DNA of 64,000 nucleotides, taken from assembly GCA_025352145.1 (NCBI GenBank), contig JANXTY010000018.1, positions 1 through 64,000 of the forward strand. Direction: 5' to 3'. Both the position numbers and the translations under genes were made by a program. Source of the DNA: Oxalobacteraceae bacterium (lineage in GTDB: Bacteria; Pseudomonadota; Gammaproteobacteria; Burkholderiales; Burkholderiaceae_D). Shown piece by piece: positions 32,603 to 51,932 of the stretch (its first letter is position 1; every line of letters starts with the position of its first letter). The notes beneath the pieces are model-generated. The model searched no databases. It was not told where the DNA came from and saw nothing but the letters and a program-made list of their open reading frames with translations.

Positions 32603-33529
32603 ATGAATGCTATCCGCACCCTTGTTTTTTTAATGGTAGCTATATTGAACTCGCTCAATGCCAATGCCGCCACATTAATATCGCAGCGTTTTTGCGCCGA
32701 CCCATCCGTGCATTTTTTCGCAGGAAAATTCTACCTTTATGCCACCAACGATCAGGACAATAGCGGCAAATATTGGGACTCAACGGATTGGCGCTTGTTT
32801 ACCTCGACCAATTTAAATACCTGGGAAGACAACGGTTCATTTCTTTCGGCAAAAATTTTTGCATGGGCAGGTGAAAAAGCGAAAGCCTGGGCGCCAGAAG
32901 CGGCGGAACGCAATCATCAATACTATTTTTATGCGCCTGTCGGCGGCAAACAAATTGGCGTGGCCGTAAGCCAATCGCCACAAGGCCCTTTTAAGGATGC
33001 ACGGCAAAGTCCCTTGGTAGAAAGTCCACGCGATCAAAATGCCGGAGACGAACCAATCGATCCTGCGGTCTTTATCGATGACGACGGTCAAGCGTATTTA
33101 TATTTTGGAACCCGCATTCCCAAAGTGGTCGCGCTCACCAAAGACATGATCCATTTGCAGGGAGAAATTAAAAATGTGGTAATCAACGGCTTTCCTGCGG
33201 ATGACGCGAAAAAAAAATACGGTGAAGCACCTTATTTACACAAGCATCAAGGACTTTATTATTTTTCGTTTTCTACCGGGTGGCCCGGGCAAATTGTGTA
33301 TGCCACAGCAAGCAGCCCCCTGGGGCCCTTTCAATATCGCGGAGTTATCATCGACTACTTGCCCATTTCAACCAATCATCACGCGATTATTGAACATGAA
33401 GGTGAAACCACACTTTTTTACCATAACAAAACTGCGGTAAGTGGCGGCAATTTCAAACGACATATTTTTCAGGATAAGTTAACCTACACAGAAAATGGGG
33501 AAATTAATCCGATTAGTCTTGCACAATAA
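32603..33529 (+). CDS. secreted glycoside hydrolase family 43 protein
   Basis: About 308 residues with a signal peptide (ending NANAAT). Five-bladed propeller marks: the general base Asp in RFCADPSVHFF (about 30), the pKa-modulating Asp in DPAVFIDDDGQAYLYFG, and the acid Glu in GEAPYLHKHQGLYY. GH43 enzymes act on arabinan, xylan and galactan side chains, so this one probably trims neutral side chains of pectin; which sugar is not visible. I chose the ATG at 32603 because it begins the signal peptide and follows AAGGA; an upstream ATG at 32555 lies before the -10 box. Confidence 0.88.
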   Translation: MNAIRTLVFLMVAILNSLNANAATLISQRFCADPSVHFFAGKFYLYATNDQDNSGKYWDSTDWRLFTSTNLNTWEDNGSFLSAKIFAWAGEKAKAWAPEAAERNHQYYFYAPVGGKQIGVAVSQSPQGPFKDARQSPLVESPRDQNAGDEPIDPAVFIDDDGQAYLYFGTRIPKVVALTKDMIHLQGEIKNVVINGFPADDAKKKYGEAPYLHKHQGLYYFSFSTGWPGQIVYATASSPLGPFQYRGVIIDYLPISTNHHAIIEHEGETTLFYHNKTAVSGGNFKRHIFQDKLTYTENGEINPISLAQ

Positions 33530-33818: not shown

Positions 33819-35390
33819 ATGCAGCTAGCAAGCACGGCCGCCAATTCCGACCCGTCCATCCCCGCCGTTTCACCCATGACACTTTTGTCTTTGAATAATG
33901 TGACGAAACGATTTCCTGGCGTGCTTGCGTTAGATCGCGTCAGTTTTATGCTTAATAAAGGCGAGGCGCACGCTGTCTGTGGAGAAAACGGTGCCGGTAA
34001 ATCGACCCTGATGAAAATCATCAGCGGCGTGTACCAACCCGATGAAGGCACTATTTTTTTCAAAGGATGCGAACGCCGCTTTGCCTCCAGCATGGAAGCA
34101 GAAGCAGCGGGCATCGCCATCATTCATCAAGAGCTCAACTTGATTCCCCATCTGTCGGTGGCTGAAAATATTTTTCTAGCGCGCGAACCGAAAAAAGGAT
34201 GGTTTATCGACAAAGCAAAGATGAATGCCGATGCACAAGTCTGCCTCGACCGCTTGAAGGTGAGCATCAAGCCAGGCGACCAGGTTAAAACCCTTTCTAT
34301 CGCACAGCAACAGATGGTCGAGATCGCCAAGGCCTTGTCCTTGAACGCGGAAGTCTTGATCATGGATGAACCGACCTCATCGCTTACTGAAACAGAAACC
34401 GTGCAGCTGTTCGAGATCATTAATGAACTCAAACAAAATGGGGTAGGCATCGTTTATATCTCCCATCGTTTAGATGAGCTGCAATACATCATTGACCGCG
34501 TGACGGTGATGCGCGATGGTAAATACGTCAGCACCGATCACTTCCATGAAATCGTGATCGATGACATCGTCGCAAAAATGGTCGGCCGCTCACTCGACGA
34601 AAAATTCCCTGAGCGCAAATCAACGCCGACTGACAAGTCCTTGCTTACCGTCACCAATCTGTCCAGAAAAGACCGGTTCGGCCCCATTGATTTCGTTTTG
34701 AAAGAGGGAGAAATACTGGGATTCGCCGGATTGATGGGATCTGGCCGGACTGAAGTAGCACGCGCGATTTTTGGCGCCGATCCTATTTCCTCCGGGCAGG
34801 TCTTTCTGGGCAAAGAGGAGGTGACGATCCACTCACCGGTCGATGCAATTGCACACGGCATTGCTTATCTTTCGGAAGACCGCAAAAGTCATGGCCTGGC
34901 TATTGGCATGCCGGTCGCCAGCAATATCACCTTAACGAATGTGGCCGCCGTTGCAGACCGTTTTGGTTTCATTCAATCAGCAAAAGAAAAAATAGCCGCA
35001 CAAACTTATATCGACGCCTTGGGCATTAAAACGCCGTCAGCACAAAATATCGTCAAGAACCTGTCGGGTGGGAATCAGCAAAAAATCGTGATCGCCAAAT
35101 GGCTGTTCCGTGGCTCCAGAATCATGTTTTTCGATGAACCGACACGCGGCATCGACGTGGGCGCAAAATTTGCAATTTACCAGTTGCTCGACGAGTTGGC
35201 GGGACAAGGGATCGGCGTGGTATTGATCAGCTCAGAGCTACCGGAAATTCTTGGCATGACGGACCGCATCGCCGTTTTCCATCAAGGAAAAATCGCCGCC
35301 ATATTAAAGACCAGTGACACGTCCCAGGAAGAGATCATGCGTTACGCATCAGGCACAAAATTAGGAAATACCGCAACAGTGAGTCAATAA
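33819..35390 (+). CDS. sugar ABC transporter, double ATP-binding subunit (RbsA/MglA type)
   Basis: 523 residues with two ABC cassettes in tandem, as in the ribose/galactose/fucose-type importers. First cassette: Walker A GENGAGKSTLMK, signature LSIAQQQMVEIAKAL, Walker B LIMDEPTSSL. Second: degenerate Walker A GLMGSGRTE and signature LSGGNQQKIVIAKWL. The protein powers uptake together with the permease and binding protein that follow. A second ATG at 33876 could also be the start, since the first 19 residues are not conserved-looking. First gene after the promoter at 33606. Confidence 0.94.
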   Translation: MQLASTAANSDPSIPAVSPMTLLSLNNVTKRFPGVLALDRVSFMLNKGEAHAVCGENGAGKSTLMKIISGVYQPDEGTIFFKGCERRFASSMEAEAAGIAIIHQELNLIPHLSVAENIFLAREPKKGWFIDKAKMNADAQVCLDRLKVSIKPGDQVKTLSIAQQQMVEIAKALSLNAEVLIMDEPTSSLTETETVQLFEIINELKQNGVGIVYISHRLDELQYIIDRVTVMRDGKYVSTDHFHEIVIDDIVAKMVGRSLDEKFPERKSTPTDKSLLTVTNLSRKDRFGPIDFVLKEGEILGFAGLMGSGRTEVARAIFGADPISSGQVFLGKEEVTIHSPVDAIAHGIAYLSEDRKSHGLAIGMPVASNITLTNVAAVADRFGFIQSAKEKIAAQTYIDALGIKTPSAQNIVKNLSGGNQQKIVIAKWLFRGSRIMFFDEPTRGIDVGAKFAIYQLLDELAGQGIGVVLISSELPEILGMTDRIAVFHQGKIAAILKTSDTSQEEIMRYASGTKLGNTATVSQ

Positions 35391-35498
35391 ATTAAATACT
35401 GAAACGTGCACACAAGTGCGCATTCGACCCATTGCATCACCCTGCATAACCGAGACCCTATGCAGCAGCCACCAGCCAAAAATACAGCGGAGAAAATC

Positions 35499-36482
35499 AT
35501 GAACGATCAACAAAAAGACTGGATACAGAAATTTGCCGCATTCGGTAGCCTGTTGGCGCTGGGTGTGGTGTTCTCCCTAACGAGTGACGCATTCTTTTCC
35601 GTGAATAATGGGATGAGCGTCGCCTTGCAGGTGACTTCCATTGCATTTCTGGGGATAGGTGCGACCTGCGTCATCATCACTGGCGGCATTGACCTGAGCG
35701 TGGGATCCGTACTTGCTTTGGCAGGTGTCGCCGCTGCAATGACCGTGAAGGCAGGTATGCCGGTTCCGGTCGGAATGGTTGTCGGGCTGGTCGTCGGCGC
35801 TTTCTGCGGTTTATGCAATGGCTTATGCATCACGCATTTGAAACTGCCTCCATTTATTGCGACACTCGGCATGATGCTCGTTGCCCGTGGAGTGGCGCTC
35901 CAGATCACCGGCGCGCGTCCCGTATCGGGACTCCCGGAAGAATTCGGCACGCTGGGAAACGGTACGCTTTTTCGTATCGTGCGAGAAAGCAGCGGCCCCT
36001 TTCCTGATGTCGTGTTTCCAGGGATTCCTTATCCGGTATTGCTGATGACGGTACTTGCCATCGTAATTGCCATCATGCTTAACCGTACCACCTTCGGACG
36101 TCATATCTATGCCGTAGGCTCCAACGCTGAAGCAGCTCGTCTGTCTGGTGTTAAAGTGGCACGCGTTACCTTATGGACTTACGTTATTTCTGGCACGCTG
36201 GCTGGGCTGACAGGGTGCGTCCTGATGTCGCGCTTGGTGACGGCGCAACCCAACGAAGGCGTCATGTATGAACTCGATGCGATTGCAAGTGCAGTCATCG
36301 GCGGCACCTCGCTGATCGGCGGAATTGGCACCATTTCTGGCACGGTCATCGGCGCCTTTGTCATCGGCATTTTGCGCAACGGCCTGAATATGAATGGGGT
36401 CTCTAGTTTCGCGCAACAAATCGTCATCGGGCTCGTCATCCTGCTCACGGTCTGGATCGATCAGATGCGAAATCGACGTTAA
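35499..36482 (+). CDS. sugar ABC transporter permease (RbsC type)
   Basis: About 327 residues with eight or more hydrophobic segments; the conserved EAA-like loop of the family reads RTTFGRHIYAVGSNAEAARLSGVKV, and AIASAVIGGTSLIGGIGT is also typical of RbsC-like permeases. I prefer the ATG at 35499: GGAG lies seven bases upstream, whereas ATGs at 35406 and 35460 have no ribosome site and would add a polar N-terminus. The stop codon falls inside the left arm of a long palindrome. Confidence 0.92.
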   Translation: MNDQQKDWIQKFAAFGSLLALGVVFSLTSDAFFSVNNGMSVALQVTSIAFLGIGATCVIITGGIDLSVGSVLALAGVAAAMTVKAGMPVPVGMVVGLVVGAFCGLCNGLCITHLKLPPFIATLGMMLVARGVALQITGARPVSGLPEEFGTLGNGTLFRIVRESSGPFPDVVFPGIPYPVLLMTVLAIVIAIMLNRTTFGRHIYAVGSNAEAARLSGVKVARVTLWTYVISGTLAGLTGCVLMSRLVTAQPNEGVMYELDAIASAVIGGTSLIGGIGTISGTVIGAFVIGILRNGLNMNGVSSFAQQIVIGLVILLTVWIDQMRNRR

Positions 36483-36607
36483 GGCTACGCTGATTAAGTA
36501 TAGCGAGCGCACCGAGTTTGTACTGAGAAGCGCAGCCGTACGACTGTACGGTGAGCATCGCAAATGCAAAATCGGGGTGCGCAGTAACTTAATCAGCGTA
36601 GCCTTAA
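36479..36607. repeat. 129-bp imperfect palindrome between permease and binding-protein genes
   Basis: The outer arms are perfect 21-bp inverted repeats (36479-36499 and 36587-36607, starting TTAAGGCTACGCTGATTAAG). Inside, GCGCACC (36507-36513) pairs with GGTGCGC (36576-36582), and at the centre CCGTAC and GTACGG enclose GACT (36536-36551). The transcript could fold into one long branched hairpin. It resembles a REP/BIME-type or MITE-like interspersed element. Sited between permease and binding protein, it may stabilise or uncouple parts of the operon message. Confidence 0.85.
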
Positions 36608-36696
36608 GCCTTGATTGGAAAATGAAGCGGCTCGTCGAAATACAGCGTGGAGCACAAAAACAAGTGTCATCAATTCATTACAAACCGAGAGAACAT

Positions 36697-37656
36697 ATGA
36701 AAATCTTTAAAAAATTATCCTTCAGCCTACTGGCCAGCATGCTGACTTTATCTGCAAGCAGTACTGTCGCGTTCGCGGCGAATCGAGAAATTGCAGTGAT
36801 CGTCAAATCCGCCAATTCCAATTTTTGGCAAAACGTACAAAAAGGCGCTGCCGCTTCCATCAAGAAAGCCCAGGGTTATACCCTGTCTTTTCAGGGACCT
36901 GCATCCGAATCAGCCATCGCTGATCAGGTTAACATGGTGGAAAATGCGGTCAATAGGAAAGTAGCTGGCATCGTACTGGCCGCTTCCGATGCAGACGCCT
37001 TAATCCCCTCCATCAAAAAAGCATGGGAAGCAAAAATCCCGGTCGTCCTGATTGACTCCCAAATTTCTGACTCTGGAAAACAATATTACCAATCATTTTT
37101 GTCCACCGACAATGAGGCAGCAGGTGCCCTTTGTGCAAAAGAGCTGATCGCCAAAGTGGGCAAGACCGGCAAGATCGCAATCATGTCCTATGTTCCCGGC
37201 GCCGGGTCCGAGGTTGGACGGGTGGGTGGCTTTACGAAATATATCAATGCCAATTCAAAGCTGAAAATCATCGGCCCTTTCTATTCGCAGTCACAGATGG
37301 CTACGGCGTTGAATCAAACTACTGACGTGCTCACTTCACATCCCGACCTGGTAGGAATTTTCGGGGCCAATGAACCAACCGCCATCGGCATGGCACGTGC
37401 TGTCGCTCAAGCGGGAAAAGCAGGAAAAGTGACTGCGATTGGTTTTGATGGCAATCAAGATGAACAAGGATTTATCAAGGATGGCACCTTACATACCATC
37501 GCCGTTCAAGATTCCTACCAAATGGGTTTCCTGGGAGTGAAAACATTGATCAGTGTGATAGAAGGAAAAGCCGTGCCAAAATTTGTCAACACCGGTGTCT
37601 TCATGGTCAATAAGAAGAACATCGAGCAGCCCGAAGCCAAGAACGTATTGTATTAA
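36697..37656 (+). CDS. sugar ABC transporter substrate-binding protein (RbsB type)
   Basis: 319 residues with a signal peptide (about 1-27, ending VAFAAN). Periplasmic binding fold type I: EIAVIVKSANSNFWQNVQKGA, AGIVLAASDADALIPSIKKA, IPVVLIDSQI, FLSTDNEAAGALCAKEL, GFDGNQDEQGFIKDGT. The ligand cannot be read; from context L-fucose, L-galactose or a small pectin product is likely. The open frame begins farther up, but this ATG starts the signal peptide and has CGAGAGAA upstream. Separated from the permease gene by the long palindrome. Confidence 0.93.
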   Translation: MKIFKKLSFSLLASMLTLSASSTVAFAANREIAVIVKSANSNFWQNVQKGAAASIKKAQGYTLSFQGPASESAIADQVNMVENAVNRKVAGIVLAASDADALIPSIKKAWEAKIPVVLIDSQISDSGKQYYQSFLSTDNEAAGALCAKELIAKVGKTGKIAIMSYVPGAGSEVGRVGGFTKYINANSKLKIIGPFYSQSQMATALNQTTDVLTSHPDLVGIFGANEPTAIGMARAVAQAGKAGKVTAIGFDGNQDEQGFIKDGTLHTIAVQDSYQMGFLGVKTLISVIEGKAVPKFVNTGVFMVNKKNIEQPEAKNVLY

Positions 37657-37753: not shown

Positions 37754-38767
37754 ATGATGAAAAGTCTTGTTTGCGAAAAGCCAGGCATTCTCCGTATGGC
37801 ACAAAAACCTATGCCAGTACGCAAGCCCGATGAAGTGTTGATTCGCATCCGACGCGTCGGAATTTGTGGAACCGATATGCATATTTTTCAGGGCTCCCAG
37901 CCTTTTCTGGAGTACCCACGCGTGATGGGACATGAATTAGCAGGTGAAGTAGTGGAGGCACCACCTGCATCCAGACTAGCAGTCGGGGATGTAATCTACG
38001 TCATGCCGTATATGTCATGCGGAACATGTGTCGCTTGCAAAAAAGGGAAAACCAATTGCTGCGCCAAAATGCAGGTACTGGGCGTACACCGGGATGGCGG
38101 CCTCACTGAATATCTGTCCATTCCCGCGCAATTTGCATTCAAAACAGAGGGCATATCGCTCGACGATGCGGCCATGATCGAATTTCTGGCTATTGGCGCC
38201 CATGCAGTCCGGCGCGCTGCCATCGAACCCGGGCAAAAAACATTGGTTGTCGGTGCCGGTCCGATCGGTATGGCAACTGCGTTGTTTGCCCGCCTGCGGG
38301 GAGCGCAAGTGTGTGTATTGGATACCCGCGCAGACCGCCTTCAATTTTGTCGCGACGCTTTGCACGTTGCAAAAACCGTTGAAGTCGGGCCGGATGATAA
38401 GGAACAATTGGCCGAATTTACTCACCAGGATTTTTTCGATGCCGTATTTGATGCCACGGGAAATGCCCAGGCCATGAAGCGCGGCTTTGAATTTGTGGCG
38501 CACGGCGGCAGCTATATCCTGGTATCCATCGTACGAGATGAGATTTCTTTTTCCGATCCTGAATTTCATAAACGAGAAACCACTTTACTCGGTAGTCGCA
38601 ATGCGACAATCGAAGATTTCGAAGCGGTATTAACAGCAATGCGTGCCGGCTTGGTACCAACCAAGCTGCTCAACACACACCGCTCTACATTGGATGACCT
38701 TGCGGCTACTTTCCCACAATGGCTGCAACCATCGGCCGGCGTCATCAAAGCCATTGTCGAGTGCTGA
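37754..38767 (+). CDS. zinc-dependent medium-chain dehydrogenase, possibly L-galactonate 5-dehydrogenase (LgoD-like)
   Basis: 337 residues of the sorbitol/threonine dehydrogenase type. Catalytic zinc site: VGICGTDMHIF and MGHELAGEV; structural zinc Cys cluster CGTCVACKKGKTNCC; NAD-binding VVGAGPIGMATALFARLRGA. In E. coli a protein of this kind (YjjN/LgoD) oxidises L-galactonate to D-tagaturonate. The next gene is a tagaturonate-reductase-like protein and then KDG kinase, exactly the following steps, which makes that role attractive here. The assignment is from context; other polyols or aldonates are possible. Confidence 0.85.
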   Translation: MMKSLVCEKPGILRMAQKPMPVRKPDEVLIRIRRVGICGTDMHIFQGSQPFLEYPRVMGHELAGEVVEAPPASRLAVGDVIYVMPYMSCGTCVACKKGKTNCCAKMQVLGVHRDGGLTEYLSIPAQFAFKTEGISLDDAAMIEFLAIGAHAVRRAAIEPGQKTLVVGAGPIGMATALFARLRGAQVCVLDTRADRLQFCRDALHVAKTVEVGPDDKEQLAEFTHQDFFDAVFDATGNAQAMKRGFEFVAHGGSYILVSIVRDEISFSDPEFHKRETTLLGSRNATIEDFEAVLTAMRAGLVPTKLLNTHRSTLDDLAATFPQWLQPSAGVIKAIVEC

Positions 38768-38774
38768 TTCGATT

Positions 38775-39896
38775 ATGAATCCAATCCTGCAATTTGGCAC
38801 CAGCCGCTTTCTCCAGGCACATGCCGACCTGTTCATCAGCGAGGCGCTCCACCGAGGTGAAGCACTGGGTAACATCACGGTCGTTCAAACCAGCAACAAC
38901 ACGCAAAGCCTGCTGCGTGTGGCGGCCTTTAATCGCGCCGAAGGATATCCGGTGCGGATACGCGGCTGGCAAAATGGTGCTCCGTTCAACGCGGAACAAC
39001 ATGTTACCTCTGTCACCGAAGCACTACAGGCAGAGCGCGACTGGCCTGTGTTGCTAGAACGCATTGCCAAGCATGTTCAGGTCATTATTTCCAATACGGG
39101 TGATCAGGGTTACGCCCTGTCCGAGAGGGACCATGCCGCGTGCCTGACCAGCCCAAGCGCTCCAGTCGGTTTTCCTGCCAAACTGCTGACGCTGTTGTAT
39201 GCGCGTTATCAGCATAACGCTGCGCCTATTACTCTCTTTCCCTGCGAGCTGGTCACACGTAATGGCGATGTCCTGCGCGGATTAATCTGCACGCTGGCGC
39301 GGCAATGGAATGTAAGCAGCGCATTTTTGACCTATCTGGAGCGTGATTGCATTTGGGTGAACTCACTTGTCGATCGCATTGTGTCAGAGCCGCTTGATCC
39401 GATTGGCGCCGTTGCGGAACCCTACGCGCTTTGGGCAATAGAACAACAGCCCGGAATGACGCTGCCGTGCCATCATCCAAGCATGATTGTCACTGACAAT
39501 CTGGAACGCTATGAGCGGCTCAAGTTGTTTCTGCTTAATCTGGGGCATACCTATATGGCCGATCAATGGCTTGTAAACGCTCGTTCGGCGGATGAAACGG
39601 TGCTGCAAGCCATGTCCAATCCTCGACTGTCTTCGGAACTGGACAACGTATGGCAAGAAGAGGTGTTACCTGTCTTCGCAGCACTGGGCGAAGATGCGAT
39701 TGCACGTGCATATTTGGAGCAGGTTAAAGAACGTTTTCGCAACCCTTTCCTCGCACATCGCCTGGCAGACATCGCTCAAAACCATCGCGAAAAAAAGCAA
39801 CGGCGCTTCAAACCGGTAGTGGCGTTAACGGAGAAACTAGGTCTCCCCATCAAACAACCGCGATTACGTGCCGCGCTTGCTGGAGATAATCGATGA
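38775..39896 (+). CDS. mannitol dehydrogenase-family oxidoreductase, tagaturonate reductase (UxaB)-like
   Basis: 373 residues, shorter than E. coli UxaB (about 480). Family marks: ILQFGTSRFLQAHADLFI at the N-terminus (nucleotide site), IISNTGDQGYAL, FPAKLLTLLYARY, LFPCELVTRNGDVL, LVDRIVSEPLD, and LKLFLLNLGHTYMA with the Lys-x5-Asn-x2-His catalytic pattern. UxaB reduces D-tagaturonate to D-altronate with NADH. Start at 38775, eight bases after the preceding gene; the longer open frame overlaps that gene. Overlaps a 14-bp triple repeat at its stop codon. Confidence 0.83.
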   Translation: MNPILQFGTSRFLQAHADLFISEALHRGEALGNITVVQTSNNTQSLLRVAAFNRAEGYPVRIRGWQNGAPFNAEQHVTSVTEALQAERDWPVLLERIAKHVQVIISNTGDQGYALSERDHAACLTSPSAPVGFPAKLLTLLYARYQHNAAPITLFPCELVTRNGDVLRGLICTLARQWNVSSAFLTYLERDCIWVNSLVDRIVSEPLDPIGAVAEPYALWAIEQQPGMTLPCHHPSMIVTDNLERYERLKLFLLNLGHTYMADQWLVNARSADETVLQAMSNPRLSSELDNVWQEEVLPVFAALGEDAIARAYLEQVKERFRNPFLAHRLADIAQNHREKKQRRFKPVVALTEKLGLPIKQPRLRAALAGDNR

Positions 39897-39934: not shown

Positions 39935-40873
39935 ATGAAAGGCCAATTCTGGTCGCTGGGCGAATGCATGCTCGAAATGCAAAATAGCACTAGCGATACA
40001 TTCACGACAGCGGCAGCCGGCGACACGTATAACGCGGCCGTCTATCTGAAACGGATTCTACCCGCAGCCGACGTGCGTTATGTAAGTGCGTTGGGTAACG
40101 ATCCCATCAGCCAGCGAATTCGTATGCAAGTGCGTGTTCATAACATCGATGACTCACTCATTGCAGCTTTACCCGAGCGACTGCCCGGCCTGTATTTAAT
40201 AGAAAATGATCCCCAAGGCGAAAGGCGGTTTCATTATTGGCGTCAAAACTCTGCAGCCCGCGACATGCTCAGTGGAAGCCATTTACAAAAAATAATTTCC
40301 GCCCTCCCTGATTGCGGCGCATTGCTATTCACCGGCATTACTTTAGCCATTTTAGATCAGTCCCGACGTGAGACATTACTTAGAATCGCCAGTGAAATTC
40401 GTCAGCAGGGTGGCTGGGTGATTGTCGATAATAATTATCGCCCTTCCCTTTGGGCGTTGGACGATCCCGGTTATTGGTTGTCAAGAGCCATAGATGTTAG
40501 CACCCACGCCTTGCTCGGTTTTGACGACGAGGCTGCCTTATTTGCCGACGTTACTCCCGATGCCGTGATTAATCGTATTCGCGCACGTAATCGTGACGTT
40601 GAAATTATCATCAAGTTAGGCGCTTCCGGTTGCCTGGTAGCGCCACCTGGTGAGGCATCCATTCACGTATCGGCAATGGCAGTTCCCGTTGTAGATACTA
40701 CTGCAGCAGGAGATAGCTTCAACGGCGCATACTTGGCGGCCCGCATTTTTGGCCTGACGCCGCTAGCATCGGCCGAACTGGCATGCCGGCTGGCAGAGCG
40801 CGTCGTGGGGAAAGTGGGGGCGATCATTCCCGCGAATGCGATGGCCGATTTAGTGTTAGTCCCCGCCGTGTAA
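39935..40873 (+). CDS. kdgK: PfkB-family sugar kinase, 2-dehydro-3-deoxygluconokinase-like
   Basis: 312 residues of the ribokinase/PfkB family. SLGECMLEM at the N-terminus and AAAGDTYNAAVYLKR (substrate site), FHYWRQNSAARDML (typical of KDG kinases), and the anion-hole/base motif VDTTAAGDSFNGAYL with the catalytic Asp. It would phosphorylate KDG to KDPG, which an aldolase outside the window would split. It follows the uxaB-like gene after the 14-bp repeats. Confidence 0.88.
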   Translation: MKGQFWSLGECMLEMQNSTSDTFTTAAAGDTYNAAVYLKRILPAADVRYVSALGNDPISQRIRMQVRVHNIDDSLIAALPERLPGLYLIENDPQGERRFHYWRQNSAARDMLSGSHLQKIISALPDCGALLFTGITLAILDQSRRETLLRIASEIRQQGGWVIVDNNYRPSLWALDDPGYWLSRAIDVSTHALLGFDDEAALFADVTPDAVINRIRARNRDVEIIIKLGASGCLVAPPGEASIHVSAMAVPVVDTTAAGDSFNGAYLAARIFGLTPLASAELACRLAERVVGKVGAIIPANAMADLVLVPAV

Positions 40874-41054: not shown

Positions 41055-42023
41055 ATGGCGATCTACTCTTACAAGAGCGCATTGTCCAGACAGGCCCCGC
41101 TAAATCCCATGTCAAAACCCCCTACACTCTACAAACGGACGACCAACCTGTTATTGACCTTGATCGCCGAAAAAATCGCGGTGGGCGACGTCCTGCCCTC
41201 CGAACAATTCTTGGCGACAGCGTGTCATTCGAGCCGAACCGTGGTACGCAATGTCATCGCTTATTTGCACACGCGTCAGATAATCAATGGCCTCGCACAA
41301 CGAGAAATTGTCCGAGCGCCGATTGCCGAGGATTATTTCGATGTGGCCGAATTACAATCGGGGTCACAACGTATTCAACATGTCATGATGGAGCGGGTCT
41401 TCCAAAGCGACATGCAGCCGGGGGCGGAATTTTCAGAAGTAGAATTGGCGCGCGAAGCCGGAACAAGTACGGTGAGCGTGCGAGAGTTCCTCATCGGGTT
41501 TTCGCGCTTTGGCCTGATCGAGAAAAAACCGCAAGGGGGATGGCGCTTGTGTGCGTTCGACCTGTCGTTTGCGAAAGAATTAGCCGACATGCGGCAAATG
41601 TTCGAGATCACGGCGATCGAGCATTGTTGCAGCCTGGGCCCATCCGATCCAGTCTATCTGGAACTCCACCGTCTGATTGCCAAACACGAAAAACTGGAGC
41701 CCAAAATAAAAACGCGCTACGGAGAATTTCCCACCCTCGACCGCGAATTTCATACCTTTCTGATCGGCTTACTCAACAATCGATTTGCTCAGGATTTTTA
41801 CGATATCGTTTCCTTTGTTTTTCACTATCACTATCAGTGGGACAAACGCGAAGAAATGGAACGCAACAACTTCGCGTTGCAAGAACATCTCGCCATACTG
41901 CGCGCGTTGGCGACACGCAACTTGGATCAAGCGCTGCATTTAATGCGCAACCATTTGGATTCCGCCCGCGCATCGCTGATGAAATCGATCAGCACCCGCA
42001 AGCAACATCCGGTATTGCGCTAA
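41055..42023 (+). CDS. GntR/FadR-type regulator with two winged-helix domains and an FCD domain
   Basis: 322 residues. A first GntR-like winged helix lies at about 25-90 (IAVGDVLPSEQFLATACHSS, RTVVRNVIAYLHTRQI), and a second at about 106-165 (QPGAEFSEVELAREAGTSTV, SVREFLIGFSRFGLIEKK), followed by an all-helical FCD ligand domain (170-305) with likely metal ligands in DREFHTF, EHLAIL and MRNHLD. Normal family members have a single winged helix and about 230 residues. It lies between kdgK and the split dehydratase and probably controls the locus. The start may be the ATG at 41109 instead. Confidence 0.85.
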   Translation: MAIYSYKSALSRQAPLNPMSKPPTLYKRTTNLLLTLIAEKIAVGDVLPSEQFLATACHSSRTVVRNVIAYLHTRQIINGLAQREIVRAPIAEDYFDVAELQSGSQRIQHVMMERVFQSDMQPGAEFSEVELAREAGTSTVSVREFLIGFSRFGLIEKKPQGGWRLCAFDLSFAKELADMRQMFEITAIEHCCSLGPSDPVYLELHRLIAKHEKLEPKIKTRYGEFPTLDREFHTFLIGLLNNRFAQDFYDIVSFVFHYHYQWDKREEMERNNFALQEHLAILRALATRNLDQALHLMRNHLDSARASLMKSISTRKQHPVLR

Positions 42024-42146: not shown

Positions 42147-42479
42147 ATGGTGACTTCATCCCAGACGACGCAGGCGACAGGCGTATTACTCATGGCCGAG
42201 CAAGACAACTGTCTTATCGCTCGTTCTGCATTGCACATAGGTGACATCGTGTTGATCGATGCGCGTCCCGTAATACTTACGCAGAACATCGACATCGGCC
42301 ACAAACTCGCACGCCGTGCGCTCGCCATTGGTGACAAAGTGCTGCGCTATGGCGCACCGATTGGCAGCGTCACTCACGCCATCGCAATCGGCGAGCATAT
42401 TCACACACACAATTTAGAGAGCGATTACATTCCGACCTACACCCTGAGTGGTGAAGGCCATCATTTTTTAGAAAGGTAA
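42147..42479 (+). CDS. UxaA-family dehydratase, small (SAF-domain) subunit
   Basis: 110 residues forming a SAF domain, the equivalent of the N-terminal part of E. coli altronate dehydratase: NIDIGHKLARRALAIGDKVLRYG, APIGSVTHAIAIGEHIHTHNLES. GGAG lies upstream of the ATG at the correct distance. The large subunit follows after five bases. In the Campylobacter fucose locus the UxaA-like protein is likewise split into two genes. Together the two should dehydrate an aldonate (D-altronate or L-fuconate) at C2-C3 using a metal. Confidence 0.9.
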   Translation: MVTSSQTTQATGVLLMAEQDNCLIARSALHIGDIVLIDARPVILTQNIDIGHKLARRALAIGDKVLRYGAPIGSVTHAIAIGEHIHTHNLESDYIPTYTLSGEGHHFLER

Positions 42480-42484
42480 TCCCC

Positions 42485-43732
42485 ATGCAAACGAGTGTGA
42501 ATACAAGCGTTCATGCCAACGTAAAGACCCCTTCAATTTCCGGCTATTTACGCGCAGATGGCCGTAAAGGGATACGCAATATTGTCGTCGTCGCTTACAT
42601 GGTGGAGTGCGCGCATCACGTAGCACGGCATGTGGTCAACGCATTTCCTGGTCAGGCAGTGCATCTGATCGGCTTTGCCGGATGCTTCCCCAACGAATAC
42701 GCCGATCAAGTCATGGGGAAGCTGGCAACGCACCCCAATGTCGGCGCAGTGTTGCTGGTATCTCTGGGCTGTGAAGGATTTAATAAACGGGGACTAGCCG
42801 AATTGATTCAAAACAGCGGCCGTCCAGTACATACCATCACGATTCAGGAAAACCACGGCACGCGCACCAGCGTCAAAAGCGGTGTTGAATGGGTCCAATG
42901 GGCACTCGACACCCTGGAGCAACAGCCACGGGTAGCGATGGGGCTGGACGAATTGGTGGTCGCCACCATTTGCGGCGGATCGGACAGTACGAGCGGCATT
43001 ACCGCTAACCCCGCCGTCGGGCGTGCATTTGATATGCTGGTTGAAGCTGGCAGCGCCTGTATTTTTGAAGAAACAGGAGAACTGGTCGGTTGCGAATATC
43101 ACATGAAGAACCGCGCCGTGTCGCCCGAACTAGGCGATGCGATTGTCAAGACGGTCGAGAAAGCGGCGAAGTATTACACCATCATGGGCCACGGAAGTTT
43201 TTCACCCGGCAATGCCGATGGTGGGTTGACTACGCAAGAAGAAAAATCCCTGGGCGCCTACGCCAAAAGCGGGGCATCGGAAATCAGCGGCATTCTAAAG
43301 CCTGGTGATCAAGCTCCTCCCGGCGGCTTGTATCTACTCGATGTAGTACCTGATGGCGAACCCCGTTTCGGCTTCCCTAATATTTCCGACAATGCCGAAA
43401 TAGTCGAGCTCATTTCTTGCGGAGCGCACATTACCTTGTTTACCACGGGACGCGGATCGGTCGTGGGCTCGGCGATTTCGCCCGTGATTAAAGTCTGCGC
43501 CAATCCGCACACCTATACACAGCTATCGGAAGACATGGACATCAACGCTGGGCGCATTCTCACTGGCGACGCCACACTCGATGAAGTCGGCACTGAAATT
43601 GTGACGATGATACGTGACGTTGCCAATGGGGCATTGAGTCAGTCCGAAGCATTGGGACATCAGGAATTTGTACTCACGTATAAACGTTTCGAGCCTTCCG
43701 GCCCGGGCTGTTTTCCCCTGCGTAAAGCCTGA
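42485..43732 (+). CDS. UxaA-family dehydratase, large subunit
   Basis: 415 residues matching the C-terminal catalytic part of altronate dehydratase: GYLRADGRKGIRNIVVVAYMVEC at the N-terminus, VSLGCEGFNKRGLAELI, TICGGSDSTSGITANPAVG, FEETGELVGCEYHM, GHGSFSPGNADGGLTTQEEKSLGAYAKSG, TTGRGSVVGSAISPVIKVCAN. Pairs with the SAF subunit five bases upstream. D-altronate and L-fuconate have the same configuration at C2 to C4, so a shared dehydratase for both is chemically sensible. Downstream genes favour L-fuconate, upstream ones D-altronate. Confidence 0.9.
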   Translation: MQTSVNTSVHANVKTPSISGYLRADGRKGIRNIVVVAYMVECAHHVARHVVNAFPGQAVHLIGFAGCFPNEYADQVMGKLATHPNVGAVLLVSLGCEGFNKRGLAELIQNSGRPVHTITIQENHGTRTSVKSGVEWVQWALDTLEQQPRVAMGLDELVVATICGGSDSTSGITANPAVGRAFDMLVEAGSACIFEETGELVGCEYHMKNRAVSPELGDAIVKTVEKAAKYYTIMGHGSFSPGNADGGLTTQEEKSLGAYAKSGASEISGILKPGDQAPPGGLYLLDVVPDGEPRFGFPNISDNAEIVELISCGAHITLFTTGRGSVVGSAISPVIKVCANPHTYTQLSEDMDINAGRILTGDATLDEVGTEIVTMIRDVANGALSQSEALGHQEFVLTYKRFEPSGPGCFPLRKA

Positions 43733-43800: not shown

Positions 43801-44850
43801 ATGCTCGCTACAGACTCTATTGAACTACCCCGCAGCAATCTCAAGCTCACCGCATTAGGCATGGGCTGCGCCATCATCGGCGGCTTATATCGCGCCACCC
43901 GTGAAGAAGATGCGCGTGCCGCCGTGGATGAGGCTTGGGAACTTGGATTACGCTATTTCGATACCGCACCCTACTACGGGTTCACCTTGTCCGAACATCG
44001 GCTCGGCGCGGCTTTGCGCAAAAGGCCTCGTCAGGATTACGTGATCAGCACTAAGGTCGGACGCCTGATGAAGCCGGATGCGTCCGTCAAACCCGGCGAA
44101 AACGATTGGGCAACGCCGTTGCCGTTCCGTCCTGTGTACGACTATACCTACGATGCCATCATGCGGTCGCACGAAGACAGTTTGCAACGCTTGGGATTGG
44201 CACACGTCGACATCTTGTTTGTGCATGATATCGGCCGCATGACGCATGGCGACCAGCATATGCACTATTGGAAACAGCTAACGACTGGAGGCGGATTTAA
44301 AGCGCTGGACGAACTGCGCAACAGCGGTCAAGTCGCCGCCATCGGACTAGGCGTGAACGAATGGGAAATCGTCGTAGACAGCATGCAAGAAATCGACCTC
44401 GATTGCACCCTGTTAGCGGGCCGCTATACCTTGCTAGAGCAGACAAGCCTGTCACCTTTGCTCGACGCTTGCGAACGCGCCGGTAATGCTATCGTCATTG
44501 GCGGCCCATTCAATTCAGGCATTCTGGTGGGTAATCGAAAATTTAATTATCAGGATGCCCCGCCTGAGATCATCAGTCGAGTCGAAAAACTGGAAACGGT
44601 CTGCCGCGCGTTTTCGGTACCGCTGCCCGCTGCCGCCTTGCAGTTCCCAATGGCGCATCCGGCGGTCGTGTCCTGCATTCCCGGCGGTAGAGATGTAGCA
44701 CAGCTGCGCCAAAATGCCGCATGGTTTGACCTGCCGATACCGGACGAATTGTGGGTCACGCTTAAAACCCAAGGATTAGTGGACGAGCGCGCACCGCTGC
44801 CAGTATCTTCGCCATCGCTCTCACCCCTCCCCTCCGCAGGAACAGCGTGA
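43801..44850 (+). CDS. aldo/keto reductase, L-fucose (L-galactose) 1-dehydrogenase-like
   Basis: 349 residues of the AKR family of the D-threo-aldose/L-fucose dehydrogenase group: LTALGMGCAIIGGLYRA, catalytic Tyr in YFDTAPYYGFTLSEHRLG, Lys in VISTKVGRLM, VDILFVHDIGR, and the coenzyme site CIPGGRDVAQLRQN. Enzymes of this group oxidise L-fucose to L-fucono-lactone and generally also take L-galactose, which has the same ring stereochemistry. I use the ATG at 43801; a TTG at 43789 is the only longer choice. Its stop overlaps the lactonase start. Confidence 0.86.
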   Translation: MLATDSIELPRSNLKLTALGMGCAIIGGLYRATREEDARAAVDEAWELGLRYFDTAPYYGFTLSEHRLGAALRKRPRQDYVISTKVGRLMKPDASVKPGENDWATPLPFRPVYDYTYDAIMRSHEDSLQRLGLAHVDILFVHDIGRMTHGDQHMHYWKQLTTGGGFKALDELRNSGQVAAIGLGVNEWEIVVDSMQEIDLDCTLLAGRYTLLEQTSLSPLLDACERAGNAIVIGGPFNSGILVGNRKFNYQDAPPEIISRVEKLETVCRAFSVPLPAAALQFPMAHPAVVSCIPGGRDVAQLRQNAAWFDLPIPDELWVTLKTQGLVDERAPLPVSSPSLSPLPSAGTA

Positions 44851-45674
44851 TGCGGATCGATGCTCATCAACATTTCTGGCTGCTAGAAAAACGGGCGGGC
44901 GCATGGCCGCCGCCTGAGCTGGCAGCGATTTACCGCGACCACCTGCCGCCCCAACTACAACCGCTCTTGGTACAGCATCATATCGATGCAACCGTGCTAG
45001 TGCAGTCCATGCCAAACGAAGACGATACGCACTTCCTGCTGAACTTGGCCGCACATCATTCATTCATTCAAGCCGTGGTCGGTTGGGTCGATCTGAAGAC
45101 AGCGGATGCAGCGCAGCGCATCGATGTCCTGGCACAAAATCCAAAGCTCAAAGGATTGCGGCCGATGCTGCAAGATCTGCCCGAAGATAACTGGATTGCC
45201 GATCCTGCCCTGGCACCTGCAATCGAAGCGATGCAACGCCATCGGCTCAGTCTGGACGCGCTAGTCTTGCCGCACCATTTGCCCGCGCTACTGGTCTTCG
45301 CAAACCGGTTTCCATCCATGCCGATTGTGATCGATCATGCCGCCAAACCCCCTATCGCAGCAAGAGAATTACAACCCTGGAAAGATGATATCGCTCGCTT
45401 GGCGGCACTGCCGCAAGTTTATTGCAAGCTGTCGGGCATGGTGAACGAGGCAGAACCGCAATGGAAAACTGTCGATCTTCAACCCTATGTTGACCACCTA
45501 TTGAACAGCTTCGGCCCGCAGCGTGTGCTGTGGGGCAGTGACTGGCCTGTACTCAATCTGGTGGCAGATTATGGGCGTTGGATCGATGCCACCGAGCTAC
45601 TGCTTGCCAATTTGACTCCGCAAGAAAAGCAAAAGGTACTGGGCCTGAATGCGCAGCATTTTTATCGAATTTAA
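44850..45674 (+). CDS. amidohydrolase-2 family lactonase, L-fuconolactonase-like
   Basis: 274 residues of the COG3618 group, which includes L-fucono-1,5-lactonase and L-rhamnono-lactonase. TIM-barrel marks: MRIDAHQHFWLLE (His-x-His), VGWVDLKTADAAQ, KGLRPMLQDLPEDNW, MPIVIDHAAKPP, VYCKLSGMVNEAEP, RVLWGSDWPVLNLV (Asp). It would open the lactone made by the AKR next door to the free aldonate. ATG overlaps the AKR stop codon (TGATG), so the two are coupled; a GTG one codon up is possible. Confidence 0.9.
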   Translation: MRIDAHQHFWLLEKRAGAWPPPELAAIYRDHLPPQLQPLLVQHHIDATVLVQSMPNEDDTHFLLNLAAHHSFIQAVVGWVDLKTADAAQRIDVLAQNPKLKGLRPMLQDLPEDNWIADPALAPAIEAMQRHRLSLDALVLPHHLPALLVFANRFPSMPIVIDHAAKPPIAARELQPWKDDIARLAALPQVYCKLSGMVNEAEPQWKTVDLQPYVDHLLNSFGPQRVLWGSDWPVLNLVADYGRWIDATELLLANLTPQEKQKVLGLNAQHFYRI

Positions 45675-45695: not shown

Positions 45696-46025
45696 ATGCA
45701 AAGAATGGGAATGGTAATCGGCATCGATCCAGAAAAAATTGGCGAATACAAAATCTTGCACGCCGCCGTCTGGCCGCAGGTCTTATCCACTTTAAAAAAA
45801 GCGAACGTACAGAACTACAGTATTTTTTTACGCGAGCCAGAGAATTTGCTGTTTGGCTATTGGGAGTATCTCGGCAGCGATTTCGACGCCGACATGGCAG
45901 CCATAGCAGAGGATGCCGAAACACGGCGCTGGTGGACCTTCTGCAGCCCCTGTCAGGTGCCGCTCGCCTCGCGCGCAGAAGGTGAACATTGGGCCATGAT
46001 GCCGCAAATATTTTACATGCCATGA
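45696..46025 (+). CDS. rhaM: L-rhamnose/L-fucose mutarotase (RhaM/DUF718 family)
   Basis: 109 residues. Interconverts the anomers of a 6-deoxy-hexose so that the dehydrogenase gets the form it prefers. Family marks: IDPEKIGEYKILHAAVWPQVL, NYSIFLREPENLLFGYWEY, AEDAETRRWWTFCSPCQVPL, EGEHWAMMPQIFYMP. Members named RhaM act on L-rhamnose; homologues in fucose loci act on L-fucose, which the neighbours suggest here. AAAGG lies upstream. Followed by an 80-bp palindromic element. Confidence 0.92.
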   Translation: MQRMGMVIGIDPEKIGEYKILHAAVWPQVLSTLKKANVQNYSIFLREPENLLFGYWEYLGSDFDADMAAIAEDAETRRWWTFCSPCQVPLASRAEGEHWAMMPQIFYMP

Positions 46026-46176: not shown

Positions 46177-46932
46177 ATGACTGGAAGATTGCAAGGAAAG
46201 ATCGCGCTCGTTACGGCGGCAGGTCAAGGCATTGGACGCGCCACAGTAGAAGCCTATCTGCGTGAAGGCGCGCAAGTGATCGCCACCGATATCAATGAAA
46301 CCCATCTGGCCGCGCTGCATTCACTGCCGGGGTGCAAGGTTCGCCCGCTCGATGTGACCGATCCCCAAGCCATTTCGGCATTGGCGAGCGAACTTGGCAA
46401 GATCGATATTTTGTTCAACTGCGCAGGTTACGTCGATAGCGGTTCCATTCTTGATTGCAGTGAAGACGCGTGGGATTTCTCGTTCAATATCAATGTGCGG
46501 TCTATGTATCGTTTAATTCGGGCGTTCTTGCCGGGCATGATCGAGCAAGGCTCAGGTTCCATCATCAATATGTCTTCCGTAGCGTCGAGCATCAAGGGAG
46601 TGTCTAATCGCTTTGTGTATACCACGACAAAAGCAGCGGTCATCGGCATGACTAAATCGGTCGCTTTTGACCTCGTCACACAAGGGGTTCGCTGCAATGC
46701 AATTTGCCCGGGTACAGTCGAGTCGCCGTCACTACAAAATCGGATCGAAATACAAGCGAAAGAAAGCGGGCAAAGTGTCGAAACCGTGTTTGCCGCTTTC
46801 GCCGCACGCCAGCCGCTAGGCCGCCTGGGGTGCACAACAGAGATCGCTGCGCTAGCTGTGTATCTGGGTTCGGATGAATCTGCATTTACTACCGGCACAA
46901 CACAGATTATTGATGGCGGCTGGTCAAACTAA
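46177..46932 (+). CDS. SDR oxidoreductase, 2-keto-3-deoxy-L-fuconate 4-dehydrogenase-like
   Basis: 251 residues, classical short-chain dehydrogenase. Nucleotide site VTAAGQGIGRATVEAYLREGA with Asp after ATDIN, NCAGYVDSG, catalytic Ser in NMSSVASSIKG and YTTTK. In non-phosphorylative deoxyhexose routes an enzyme of this type oxidises 2-keto-3-deoxy-L-fuconate (or -rhamnonate) at C4 to the 2,4-diketo acid. The FAH-fold hydrolase that splits that product follows 27 bases later. The start has GGGGAT upstream. Confidence 0.87.
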   Translation: MTGRLQGKIALVTAAGQGIGRATVEAYLREGAQVIATDINETHLAALHSLPGCKVRPLDVTDPQAISALASELGKIDILFNCAGYVDSGSILDCSEDAWDFSFNINVRSMYRLIRAFLPGMIEQGSGSIINMSSVASSIKGVSNRFVYTTTKAAVIGMTKSVAFDLVTQGVRCNAICPGTVESPSLQNRIEIQAKESGQSVETVFAAFAARQPLGRLGCTTEIAALAVYLGSDESAFTTGTTQIIDGGWSN

Positions 46933-46959: not shown

Positions 46960-47826
46960 ATGAAATTAATGCGATATGGCACAAAAGGAAATGAGAAACC
47001 AGCTCTGATGGATGCGGACGGACAAGTACGATGCCTATCTGGTGTGATACCCGACATTACAGCGGCTATCTTAAGTTCCGACAATCTAAAACGCTTGGCA
47101 GCGCTAGACGTGAAAGCGCTGCCTGTGGTTTCCCAACCTGGACGCATTGCGCCACCCTACAGTGGTACTGGAAAATTTATCTGTGTTGGTTTGAACTATG
47201 CAGACCATGCTGCCGAATCAGGCATGGCCGTCCCTGCCGAGCCGGTATTATTCATGAAAGCAACCAGCGCTATTATCGGCTGCAACGACCCTGTCGTCCT
47301 CCCGCAAAATTCTATCAAAAGCGATTGGGAAGTAGAGCTAGGCGTCGTGATTGGCACAACAGCGAGATATGTGCCCGAAGCAAATGCAATGGAATATGTA
47401 GCTGGTTATTGCGTCGTCAATGATTTGTCCGAACGTGAATATCAACTCGAGCGAGGCGGACAATGGGATAAGGGAAAAGGCTGCGACACCTTCGGCCCAA
47501 TCGGTCCTTGGTTGGTAACTACAGATGAAGTAGCGGATCCACAGAACCTGGACTTATGGCTTGAAGTTAATGGCAAAAAATATCAGCAAGGGACTACTAG
47601 AACAATGGTGTTTACGGTCGCGCATCTGGTGAGCTACATCAGCCGGTTCATGACTCTTTATCCGGGTGACATCATCAGCACCGGTACACCGCCGGGCGTT
47701 GGTCTTGGTCAGAAGCCTTCGCCTGTTTTCCTGAAACCGGGAGACCAGATGCGTCTGGGCATCACGGGGCTGGGTGTGCAAAGCCAAACTACGCATGCGT
47801 GGAATCCTGCGTTGATCGACGGGTAA
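46960..47826 (+). CDS. fumarylacetoacetate hydrolase-family protein, 2,4-diketo-3-deoxy-L-fuconate hydrolase-like
   Basis: 288 residues, FAH fold. Marks: KFICVGLNYADHAAESG, EPVLFMKATSAIIG, SDWEVELGVVIGT (metal Glu), GYCVVNDLSEREYQLE, KGCDTFGPIGPWLVT, DIISTGTPPGVGLGQ. It would cleave 2,4-diketo-3-deoxy-L-fuconate (or -rhamnonate) to pyruvate and L-lactate, finishing the deoxyhexose branch without phosphorylation. The order AKR, lactonase, mutarotase, SDR, FAH is a known non-phosphorylative set. AAGGAA lies upstream of the start. Confidence 0.9.
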   Translation: MKLMRYGTKGNEKPALMDADGQVRCLSGVIPDITAAILSSDNLKRLAALDVKALPVVSQPGRIAPPYSGTGKFICVGLNYADHAAESGMAVPAEPVLFMKATSAIIGCNDPVVLPQNSIKSDWEVELGVVIGTTARYVPEANAMEYVAGYCVVNDLSEREYQLERGGQWDKGKGCDTFGPIGPWLVTTDEVADPQNLDLWLEVNGKKYQQGTTRTMVFTVAHLVSYISRFMTLYPGDIISTGTPPGVGLGQKPSPVFLKPGDQMRLGITGLGVQSQTTHAWNPALIDG

Positions 47827-49505: not shown

Positions 49506-49541
49506 ACGGGTCTGAATAAAATTTTAAAACGATTGCTCCTC

Positions 49542-51932
49542 ATGAAAACTTTATTTCGCTCTGTGCTCTATCTCATGTTCGCCTTCGTTGCGACTGTTAC
49601 CACTGCAGCCGACCTGACGCTGCGTTACGACAAACCAGCGCCAGACACCCCGCAAGGCTGGGAACGCGAAGCACTACCCATCGGCAATGGCCGCATCGGT
49701 GCAATGATTTTCGGCCAGCCAGCGCGCGAACGGGTTCAGTTCAACGACATCACACTCTGGACCGGCGACGACAAAGCTATGGGAGCGTATCAGCCTTTTG
49801 GCGACGTCTTCATCAACCTACCGGGCCACGATACTGGCACAAGCAATTATGTCCGTGAACTCGATCTTGAACAAAGCGTGCATCGCGTCAGCTATGTAAG
49901 GGAAGGGATTCAATTTCACCGCGAAACCTTTGCCAGCCATCCGGCGCAAGTAATCGTCATGCGCCTGACGGCGAATAAACCCGGCAGCTATACGGGTTCC
50001 ATCGAGCTGACTGATATGCATGAGGCACGCATCACCGCTTCTGGCAATCGCATCTATTCCACCGGCTCACTAGCCGGTTTTATCCAACCAGCACGCCGTC
50101 GTGGAAATCAAACCCCACCACCACTACCGGCTCCCTCCACCAATGTGATGGATTACGCCGGCCAAGTGCACGTAGTAAACGAAGGTGGCAAGCTCACGCT
50201 CGATGGCAACAAAATTACCTTCACCGATTGCAATACACTCACCCTCATTCTCGGCGCCGGGACGAGTTACAGCTTTGATCCGGCCAAACGATTCCAGGGC
50301 GATCACCCACTGCCTCGCGTTTCGGCACAAGTGAACGCAGCGATGGCCCGCCCGTGGACAGAACTCATGGCTGAACATCAAAACGATTTTCATGCACTGT
50401 TTGGGCGGGTCGCCCTCAACCTCGGCGAAGCTACGCCACAACGCCGTGCGCTGAGCACCGACAAGCGCATTGAGACCTACACGGCCGAAGGAAACGATCC
50501 CGGACTGGAAGCACAATTTTTTCAGTTTGGCCGCTACCTGCTTATCTCCAGCTCCCGTGATTCACTCCCTGCCAACCTGCAAGGGCTCTGGAACAATAGC
50601 CTCACACCACCCTGGAATTCTGATTACCATACCAACATCAACATTCAGATGAATTATTGGCCGGCCGAACCCGCTAACCTCCGCGAATCGGCTCACCCTT
50701 TCTTTAATTTCGTACGAGGTGTAACGCCGATCTACCGCCAGCTCATTGCTGAAACAGCTGCACGTGCTGCCCCACATCCGCGCGCAGCAAGCGCCTCACC
50801 CGACCCCAATGGACGCCTCCGTCCACTTGAGGAAACCTTTCTTACGGCCACCGGCAAACCGGTGCGCGGCTGGACGGTGCGTACCGAGTCGAATCCTTTC
50901 GGCGCTACAGGCTACACGTGGAATAAAACTGCCAACGCCTGGTACGCCCAGCATTTCTGGGAACATTACGCATTCACTCAAGACAAGGAATTTCTCCGCA
51001 CCGTCGCCTATCCAATGATGAAAGAGGCCTGCCAATTCTGGCAGGACAGCCTGAAGGTTTTACCTGATGGCCGCCTCGTCGCCCCGAATGGCTGGTCACC
51101 GGAACACGGCCCCATCGAAGATGGCATCACCTACGACCAGGAAATCATCTGGGATTTATTCAACAATACTGTCGAAGCAGCCGATGCCCTGGGCACCGAC
51201 CAAATTTTCCGTAATCAAATCGCTGCCATGCGCGACAAACTCGCCGTGCCGCGCATCGGTAGTTGGGGACAAATACTCGAATGGCTGGATGAGAAAAAAG
51301 ATCCGATACTCGACACAGCAAGCGATACGCATCGCCATGTCTCCCATCTGTTCGCGCTGTTTCCCGGCCGCCAGATTTCACCCACCACAACCCCCGCGCT
51401 CGCAGCGGCAGCCCGCAAGACACTCGAAGGCCGCGGTGATGCAGGTACGGGCTGGTCTATGGCATGGAAAACGGCATACTGGGCTCGTCTGCAGGATGGC
51501 GATCATGCCTACAAAATGTTACAAGGCCAACTCGCCAAGCCCGGCGCCCGCGCCGCCCAGCAAACTGGCACCGGCACGGAGACCAACAACGCCGGCGGTA
51601 CTTACCAGAATATGTTTGATGCACATCCCCCCTTTCAGATCGACGGCAATTTCGGTGCCACCGCCGCCATCTGCGAAATGCTCGTGCAATCCCAGACTGG
51701 CGAAATCCATTTGCTCCCGGCCCTGCCTTCTGCCTGGGCAACCGGTTCTGTCAAAGGTCTACGTGCCCGCGGTGGATTTGAAATCGATCTCGCCTGGACG
51801 AACGGTAAACTCGCTACCGCAACGGTTCATTCTGTGGCAGGTTCCGGGGGCGGAAAAATCCGTTATGACGACAAAGTTATCGAACTCCACCTCAAACCGG
51901 GCGAATCAAAAACACTGGGGGGGAATTGGTAG
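49542..51932 (+). CDS. GH95-family alpha-L-fucosidase (or alpha-L-galactosidase)
   Basis: About 796 residues with a signal peptide (ending TVTTAAD). Marks: [65 protein letters not shown] (catalytic region), [61 protein letters not shown]95 removes alpha-1,2-linked L-fucose, and some members prefer L-galactose, from xyloglucan and pectin. It would feed sugars to the L-fucose/L-galactose route upstream. The ATG at 49542 starts the signal peptide. Confidence 0.92.

Follow-up and report, generated by a model that had tools for sequence, protein, structure and literature searches.

The whole stretch of DNA that was analyzed (64,000 nucleotides; hereinafter, the window) comes from an Oxalobacteraceae bacterium and contains two sets of sugar acid genes on the forward strand, set 1 and set 2, with a gene for a GntR/FCD-type regulator (41055..42023, forward strand; PF00392 and PF07729) between them. 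The regulator gene is followed on the same strand by the two ORFs of a split dehydratase, namely, a small SAF-domain subunit of 110 aa (42147..42479; PF08666, 24.8 bits with a cut-off of 21) and a catalytic subunit of 415 aa (42485..43732; PF20629 and PF04295, with Pfam scores of 98.7 bits for GD_AH_second and 266.7 bits for GD_AH_C). All three Pfam domains of the UxaA/GarD superfamily (COG2721) exceeded their cut-offs and were spread over two chains, which bears out the two-ORF split dehydratase proposed for positions 42147–43732 in the sequence-only reading of this DNA. The reading frames of the ORFs differ, and the stop of the small ORF is separated from the start of the catalytic ORF by 5 bases; RBS-like sequences precede both (AAGGAGAG 5′ of 42147 and GAAAGG 5′ of 42485), and a scan for promoters and terminators revealed no excess over shuffled sequences. 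The solved chain nearest to the small subunit was 3k3s, an ‘altronate hydrolase’ (E-value = 8e-12), and the subunit matched residues 10–83 of E. coli UxaA at 39%. The catalytic subunit was 32–33% identical to GarD and 28% identical to UxaA, and it matched the solved structure 6u7l (GarD) with an E-value of 4e-42. A frameshift or assembly artefact was ruled out as the cause of the split: of 100 loci encoding a relative of the catalytic subunit (80 on named contigs and 20 in order-level genomes), 98 kept the two ORFs separate and none had them fused, while in the two loci without a separate small ORF the catalytic gene lay about 220 bases or less from the end of the contig or stretch.

Set 2, on the forward strand, begins with an aldo/keto reductase gene (43801..44850; PF00248), whose product, a putative L-fucose/L-galactose 1-dehydrogenase, would carry out the upstream step common to both sugars; the nearest solved structures were L-galactose dehydrogenases (E-value = 3e-28), and the title of Horiuchi 1989, as cited in PMC10079672, names an ‘L-fucose (L-galactose) dehydrogenase’. 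It is followed by genes for an amidohydrolase, the putative L-fucono-1,5-lactonase (44847..45674; NF052480 FuconLaconase, 221.6 bits, which does not reach the cut-off of 400), a sugar mutarotase-like protein (45696..46025; family assigned by eye, with 71–81% homologues in Oxalobacteraceae loci), an SDR that is the putative L-2-keto-3-deoxyfuconate 4-dehydrogenase (46177..46932), and a putative 2,4-diketo-3-deoxy-aldonate hydrolase of the fumarylacetoacetate-hydrolase (FAH) family (46960..47826; NF053535, 447 bits, which does not reach the cut-off of 500). The SDR matched 8XWK/8Y11, the L-KDFDH of Herbaspirillum huttiense (E-value = 1e-103), and keeps the R-T-R-R signature of this enzyme (PMC11199699) with exact spacing (R145, T180, R189, and R211). 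As read from these genes, set 2 is a set for L-fucose utilization. In the Massilia and Duganella loci L077–L086, the SDR of the locus was just 36–41% identical to that of the window, and L-2-keto-3-deoxyfuconate may be oxidized there by a different enzyme.

Farther downstream on the forward strand, an esterase gene and then a gene for a GH95-type alpha-L-fucosidase/galactosidase were found (49533..51932; FucOB 7znz, E-value = 4e-162; catalytic-loop motif DYHTNIN), and the GH95 enzyme is the likely source of the sugars. The motif carries a fucosidase-like His at the subsite position; this residue was considered as a discriminator between L-fucose and L-galactose and dropped, since published work finds the position not decisive. 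A sugar ABC transporter (ATPase, permease, and binding protein; 33819..37656, forward strand) was assigned from its ORFs and their homologues at other loci, which reached 68–81% at the related Janthinobacterium loci L071–L075 and 63–77% at L195–L197, where they adjoin L-galactose loci with a fused dehydratase. Near the locus, the gene at 29447–32233 encodes a PcRGLX-like protein (rhamnogalacturonan-lyase-type) and that at 32579–33526 a GH43 protein, which suggests that the sugars come from pectin side chains.

Set 1, also on the forward strand, comprises genes for a Zn-dependent, LgoD-like putative L-galactonate 5-dehydrogenase (37754..38767; 44% to E. coli LgoD over 335 aa; best NCBIfam model NF007489, below its cut-off), a short UxaB-like putative D-tagaturonate reductase (38775..39896; NF002969, 209.7 bits with an unreached cut-off of 359; 26% to E. 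coli UxaB), and a KdgK-like putative 2-keto-3-deoxygluconate kinase (39935..40873; NF052444, 275.9 bits with an unreached cut-off of 400); the NCBIfam scores of most set 1 genes fall under the curated cut-offs. KDPG aldolase genes are located elsewhere in the genome. No gene for the uronate isomerase UxaC was found in the genome (a 74-contig draft, 97.5% complete), and D-galacturonate was therefore ruled out as a source of D-altronate via the isomerase. Because UxaC is absent and the Zn-dehydrogenase is LgoD-like, set 1 most likely leads from L-galactonate through D-tagaturonate to D-altronate and so would start from L-galactose; as expected of a D-altronate-forming L-galactose pathway, the 5-dehydrogenase and the tagaturonate reductase lie in one locus and the D-galacturonate source is excluded. 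The same group of transporter, aldo/keto reductase (AKR), lactonase, Zn-dehydrogenase (ZnADH), and UxaB genes stands beside a fused superfamily dehydratase in two loci of other families (L196 and L197). The kinase of set 1 may be needed because the related L-KDFDH handles 2-keto-3-deoxygluconate with a 105-fold lower efficiency than its own substrate (PMC11199699). Elsewhere in the genome, the GarD gene adjoins a uronate-dehydrogenase-like gene (G000:C29:159286-161721, equal to L012:8287-10722); together with the absence of UxaC, this indicates that D-galacturonate probably takes an oxidative route in this organism.

In the tree of 74 superfamily rows, the deep joins of which carry long branches and are not to be interpreted, the split enzymes formed a clade of their own (support 100/100) that contained the window enzyme nested among Oxalobacteraceae sequences; E. 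coli UxaA, the uxaABC enzymes, GarD, and the fused dehydratases of L-galactose loci fell outside it. The name UxaA used in the sequence-only reading holds as a superfamily label but, given the separate clade and the identity of 28%, not as a statement of orthology; the enzyme is placed by sequence in the split L-fuconate-dehydratase clade (FucC type) and not in UxaA proper. Both traits of the FucC type were observed, that is, two chains (a small SAF chain and a catalytic chain) and adjoining genes for L-fucose dehydrogenase, lactonase, L-KDFDH with its signature residues, and hydrolase. The clade occurs mainly at L-fucose loci, and split-clade genes accompanied by AKR, lactonase, SDR, and FAH genes and lacking set 1 occurred in 46 of the 100 loci. 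About 20 of the 100 split loci had non-fucose contexts, so a split enzyme does not by itself indicate a fucose locus. The split dehydratases of L056, L060, and L068, and in part those of L054–L070, 66–69% identical to that of the window, had non-sugar surroundings, with an enolase-superfamily gene, an HpcH/HpaI aldolase gene, a PALP-family gene, and a DSBA-like gene as neighbors; therefore, the clade is not purely L-fuconate-related.

A second dehydratase of the UxaA/GarD, enolase-superfamily, or ILVD/EDD type was not found within the window, in agreement with the earlier statement that the window holds no further dehydratase; the nearest one, IlvD, is encoded at 70861 of the same contig, past the window end. 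The genome-wide search covered the UxaA/GarD, enolase, and ILVD/EDD superfamilies and revealed in them no further enzyme that is an obvious candidate for dehydrating D-altronate or L-fuconate. The sole other PF20629 gene of the genome encodes GarD, galactarate dehydratase (TIGR03248, 926 bits with a cut-off of 731). The enolase superfamily was represented by DgoD and two GudD-like enzymes, and the ILVD/EDD superfamily by IlvD, Edd, and three enzymes of the PRK06131/PRK13017 type (pentonate-type); by these types, the enzymes of both superfamilies were set aside as candidates for the dehydratase, except for the three pentonate-type ones, to which no substrate is assigned.

Comparative analysis of 295 genomes of the family revealed the split enzyme in 25, the short UxaB in 24, and both in 22 (hypergeometric probability of 7e-28, a figure that overstates independence owing to the relatedness of the genomes); counted by genus, 7 were common, of 8 and 8 among 44 genera (1.6e-6). 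The two genes were at most about 8 kb apart in 20 of the 22 co-carriers. In half of these 20, the split enzyme was the sole superfamily member, with UxaB about 2.5 kb off, and in another 6, among them the window genome, GarD was the one additional member. In Janthinobacterium lividum, no superfamily member besides the split enzyme was found. A dedicated fused dehydratase usually accompanies set 1 when it is not located with the split enzyme: in G486 and G670, a fused L-galactose-type dehydratase lay less than 1 kb from a UxaB gene with no split enzyme near it, and in G580, where UxaB had no split enzyme nearby, a fused dehydratase was found elsewhere in the genome. An exception was G538, with set 1 about 170 kb from the split enzyme and with only the split enzyme and GarD representing the superfamily. 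Three genomes (G402, G408, and G414) carried ZnADH at the split locus and lacked the short UxaB; a classical uxaABC present in these genomes could complete the route. Extra non-GarD superfamily copies were found in G662 and G650.

Taken with the stereochemistry of the substrates, these data point to one enzyme for two sugars. The sequence-only reading had noted that D-altronate and L-fuconate are alike at C2, C3, and C4, which is correct; a C2–C4 comparison is printed for D-arabinonate, D-altronate, and L-galactonate in PMC6336799. Matching stereochemistry does not guarantee useful rates, however, since the efficiency of the fused enzyme C785_RS13685 with D-altronate was 6,700-fold lower than with D-arabinonate (PMC6336799), and the overlap is best regarded as permissive, not decisive. 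We infer both activities, the assembly of the subunits, and the order of the steps as follows. The pair would form a dehydratase of the UxaA/GarD superfamily that has two subunits, depends on iron, and removes water at C2/C3 from aldonates that share the configuration of L-fuconate at C2–C4. On the L-fucose side, it would convert L-fuconate into L-2-keto-3-deoxyfuconate. The aldo/keto reductase and lactonase of this route would also oxidize L-galactose to L-galactonate, the LgoD-like and UxaB-like enzymes would turn L-galactonate into D-altronate by inversion at C5, and the same split enzyme would then form 2-keto-3-deoxygluconate, to be phosphorylated by KdgK and cleaved by KDPG aldolase. We consider it likely, on genomic grounds, that one split enzyme serves the L-fucose and L-galactose branches in the window genome and in its Oxalobacteraceae relatives. 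The earlier proposal of one enzyme feeding both branches is thus retained as the best genomic reading, in view of the co-distribution and of the genome having no other obvious dehydratase, with the source of set 1 and the UxaA identity corrected. L-Galactonate and D-arabinonate are likely further substrates. With somewhat less confidence, we favor a history in which, in Oxalobacteraceae, a split-clade L-fuconate dehydratase displaced the fused D-altronate dehydratase of the L-galactose pathway and the loci merged, so that transporter, dehydrogenase, lactonase, and dehydratase became common to L-fucose and L-galactose, its 6-hydroxy analogue, and the branches would part only in between.

Among the alternatives, the one that survives best, although it is unlikely, is that the substrates of the split enzyme are limited to L-fuconate and, by direct dehydration, L-galactonate, with set 1 being an alternative sink whose D-altronate is dehydrated by an unrecognized enzyme encoded elsewhere (a side activity of GarD, or an ILVD/EDD enzyme). 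L-Galactonate has the L-fuconate configuration throughout, and set 1 may be a parallel route to the direct dehydration of this aldonate; moreover, L-KDFDH acts on L-2-keto-3-deoxygalactonate only 5.3-fold less efficiently than on its best substrate (PMC11199699), and, besides GarD, the genome encodes three ILVD/EDD enzymes without an assigned substrate. However, 10 related genomes without GarD keep set 1 beside the split enzyme, and most set 1 loci distant from the split enzyme have a fused UxaA/GarD dehydratase, which implicates this superfamily in the step. It is quite improbable that D-arabinonate or another aldonate is the physiological substrate, with L-fuconate and D-altronate being minor ones: a fused relative strongly prefers D-arabinonate (PMC6336799), the Campylobacter fuc operon is used for D-arabinose (PMC6946681), and the split loci outside fucose contexts fit this reading as well, whereas the nearby GH95 glycosidase, the L-KDFDH signature, and the lactonase indicate L-fucose. 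The notion that set 1 serves D-galacturonate by the classical isomerase pathway, with the split enzyme a true D-altronate dehydratase lying beside fucose genes by chance, agrees with the Pfam and general names UxaA, UxaB, and KdgK and with the pectin-type lyase and GH43 genes upstream but is largely refuted by the missing UxaC and hardly credible given the oxidative route indicated by GarD and its neighbor, a Zn-dehydrogenase with no role in the classical route, and the position of the split enzyme outside the UxaA clade.

Promiscuity of the aldonate-dehydratase family over these aldonates, and dual function, were reportedly described by Watanabe 2019, and the study of ACAV_RS08155 of Acidovorax avenae is said to have found that two dehydrogenases invert L-galactonate at C5 and that the resulting D-altronate is dehydrated, with an overlap with L-fucose use. 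ACAV_RS08155 is reportedly a single-chain enzyme, whereas in the window the split enzyme would occupy that role. A heteromeric L-fuconate dehydratase was proposed for Paraburkholderia mimosarum (A19U_RS0100650/655; PMC6336799), which resembles the window in having a UxaA/GarD-superfamily dehydratase encoded by two genes within an L-fucose locus of the non-phosphorylating type; dozens of loci of this kind from the Paraburkholderia/Caballeronia group were found among the related loci, and they lack the L-galactonate-inverting set 1 that adjoins in the window. The D-arabinonate dehydratase C785_RS13685 of Herbaspirillum huttiense, for which D-arabinonate, D-altronate, L-fuconate, and L-galactonate were assayed (PMC6336799), belongs to the same superfamily but is not heteromeric and strongly prefers D-arabinonate. 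The lgu cluster of Luteolibacter LG18 processes L-galactose via D-tagaturonate and D-altronate by LgoD-, UxaB-, and UxaA-type steps but lacks an L-fucose branch, and its L-glucose/L-galactose dehydrogenase LguA is inactive on L-fucose (PMC12632266). In Campylobacter, as in the window, the N-terminal part is encoded by a small gene and the C-terminal part by a large one in the L-fucose operon (Cj0482, 88 aa, and Cj0483, 389 aa; PMC9100392), whereas set 1 is not described there. The match to Campylobacter claimed from the sequence stands as regards the split but lends weaker support than supposed, because a Cj0483 knockout was reported as non-essential for L-fucose use (PMC9100392).

The dual role of the enzyme family is thus already published, mainly for single-chain members, and the window locus is a modest variant of it; what appears to be new is that, in a merged locus, both branches would depend on a single dehydratase, the split enzyme of the L-fucose locus. 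The guess about overlapping substrates thereby becomes cleanly testable, since one Janthinobacterium deletion should abolish growth on two sugars, and the locus offers a natural case of one superfamily enzyme apparently replacing another at a pathway branch. Possible uses are the correction of the automatic label ‘altronate dehydratase’ and the search for residues that set aldonate specificity. Only 7 alignment columns separated the set-1-bearing loci from the others, and two of them (A160 and S168) flank Cys163. Ala160 and Ser168 were present in all set-1-bearing Oxalobacteraceae enzymes, and the other split fucose-locus enzymes almost always had Gly; both residues were also common to two Oxalobacteraceae loci without set 1 at the locus, so they may be a lineage signal. 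Cys163, together with Cys42, Cys67, and Cys96, is a candidate iron ligand of the catalytic subunit, each of the four being kept in at least 73 of the 74 superfamily rows; the four conserved cysteines of the superfamily are iron ligands and are lost in sulfolactate sulfo-lyase (PMC6336799). One alignment row lacked three of the four, which would fit a sulfolactate sulfo-lyase, and this row may be L187, a divergent 412-aa superfamily member from the Maritalea porphyrae genome.
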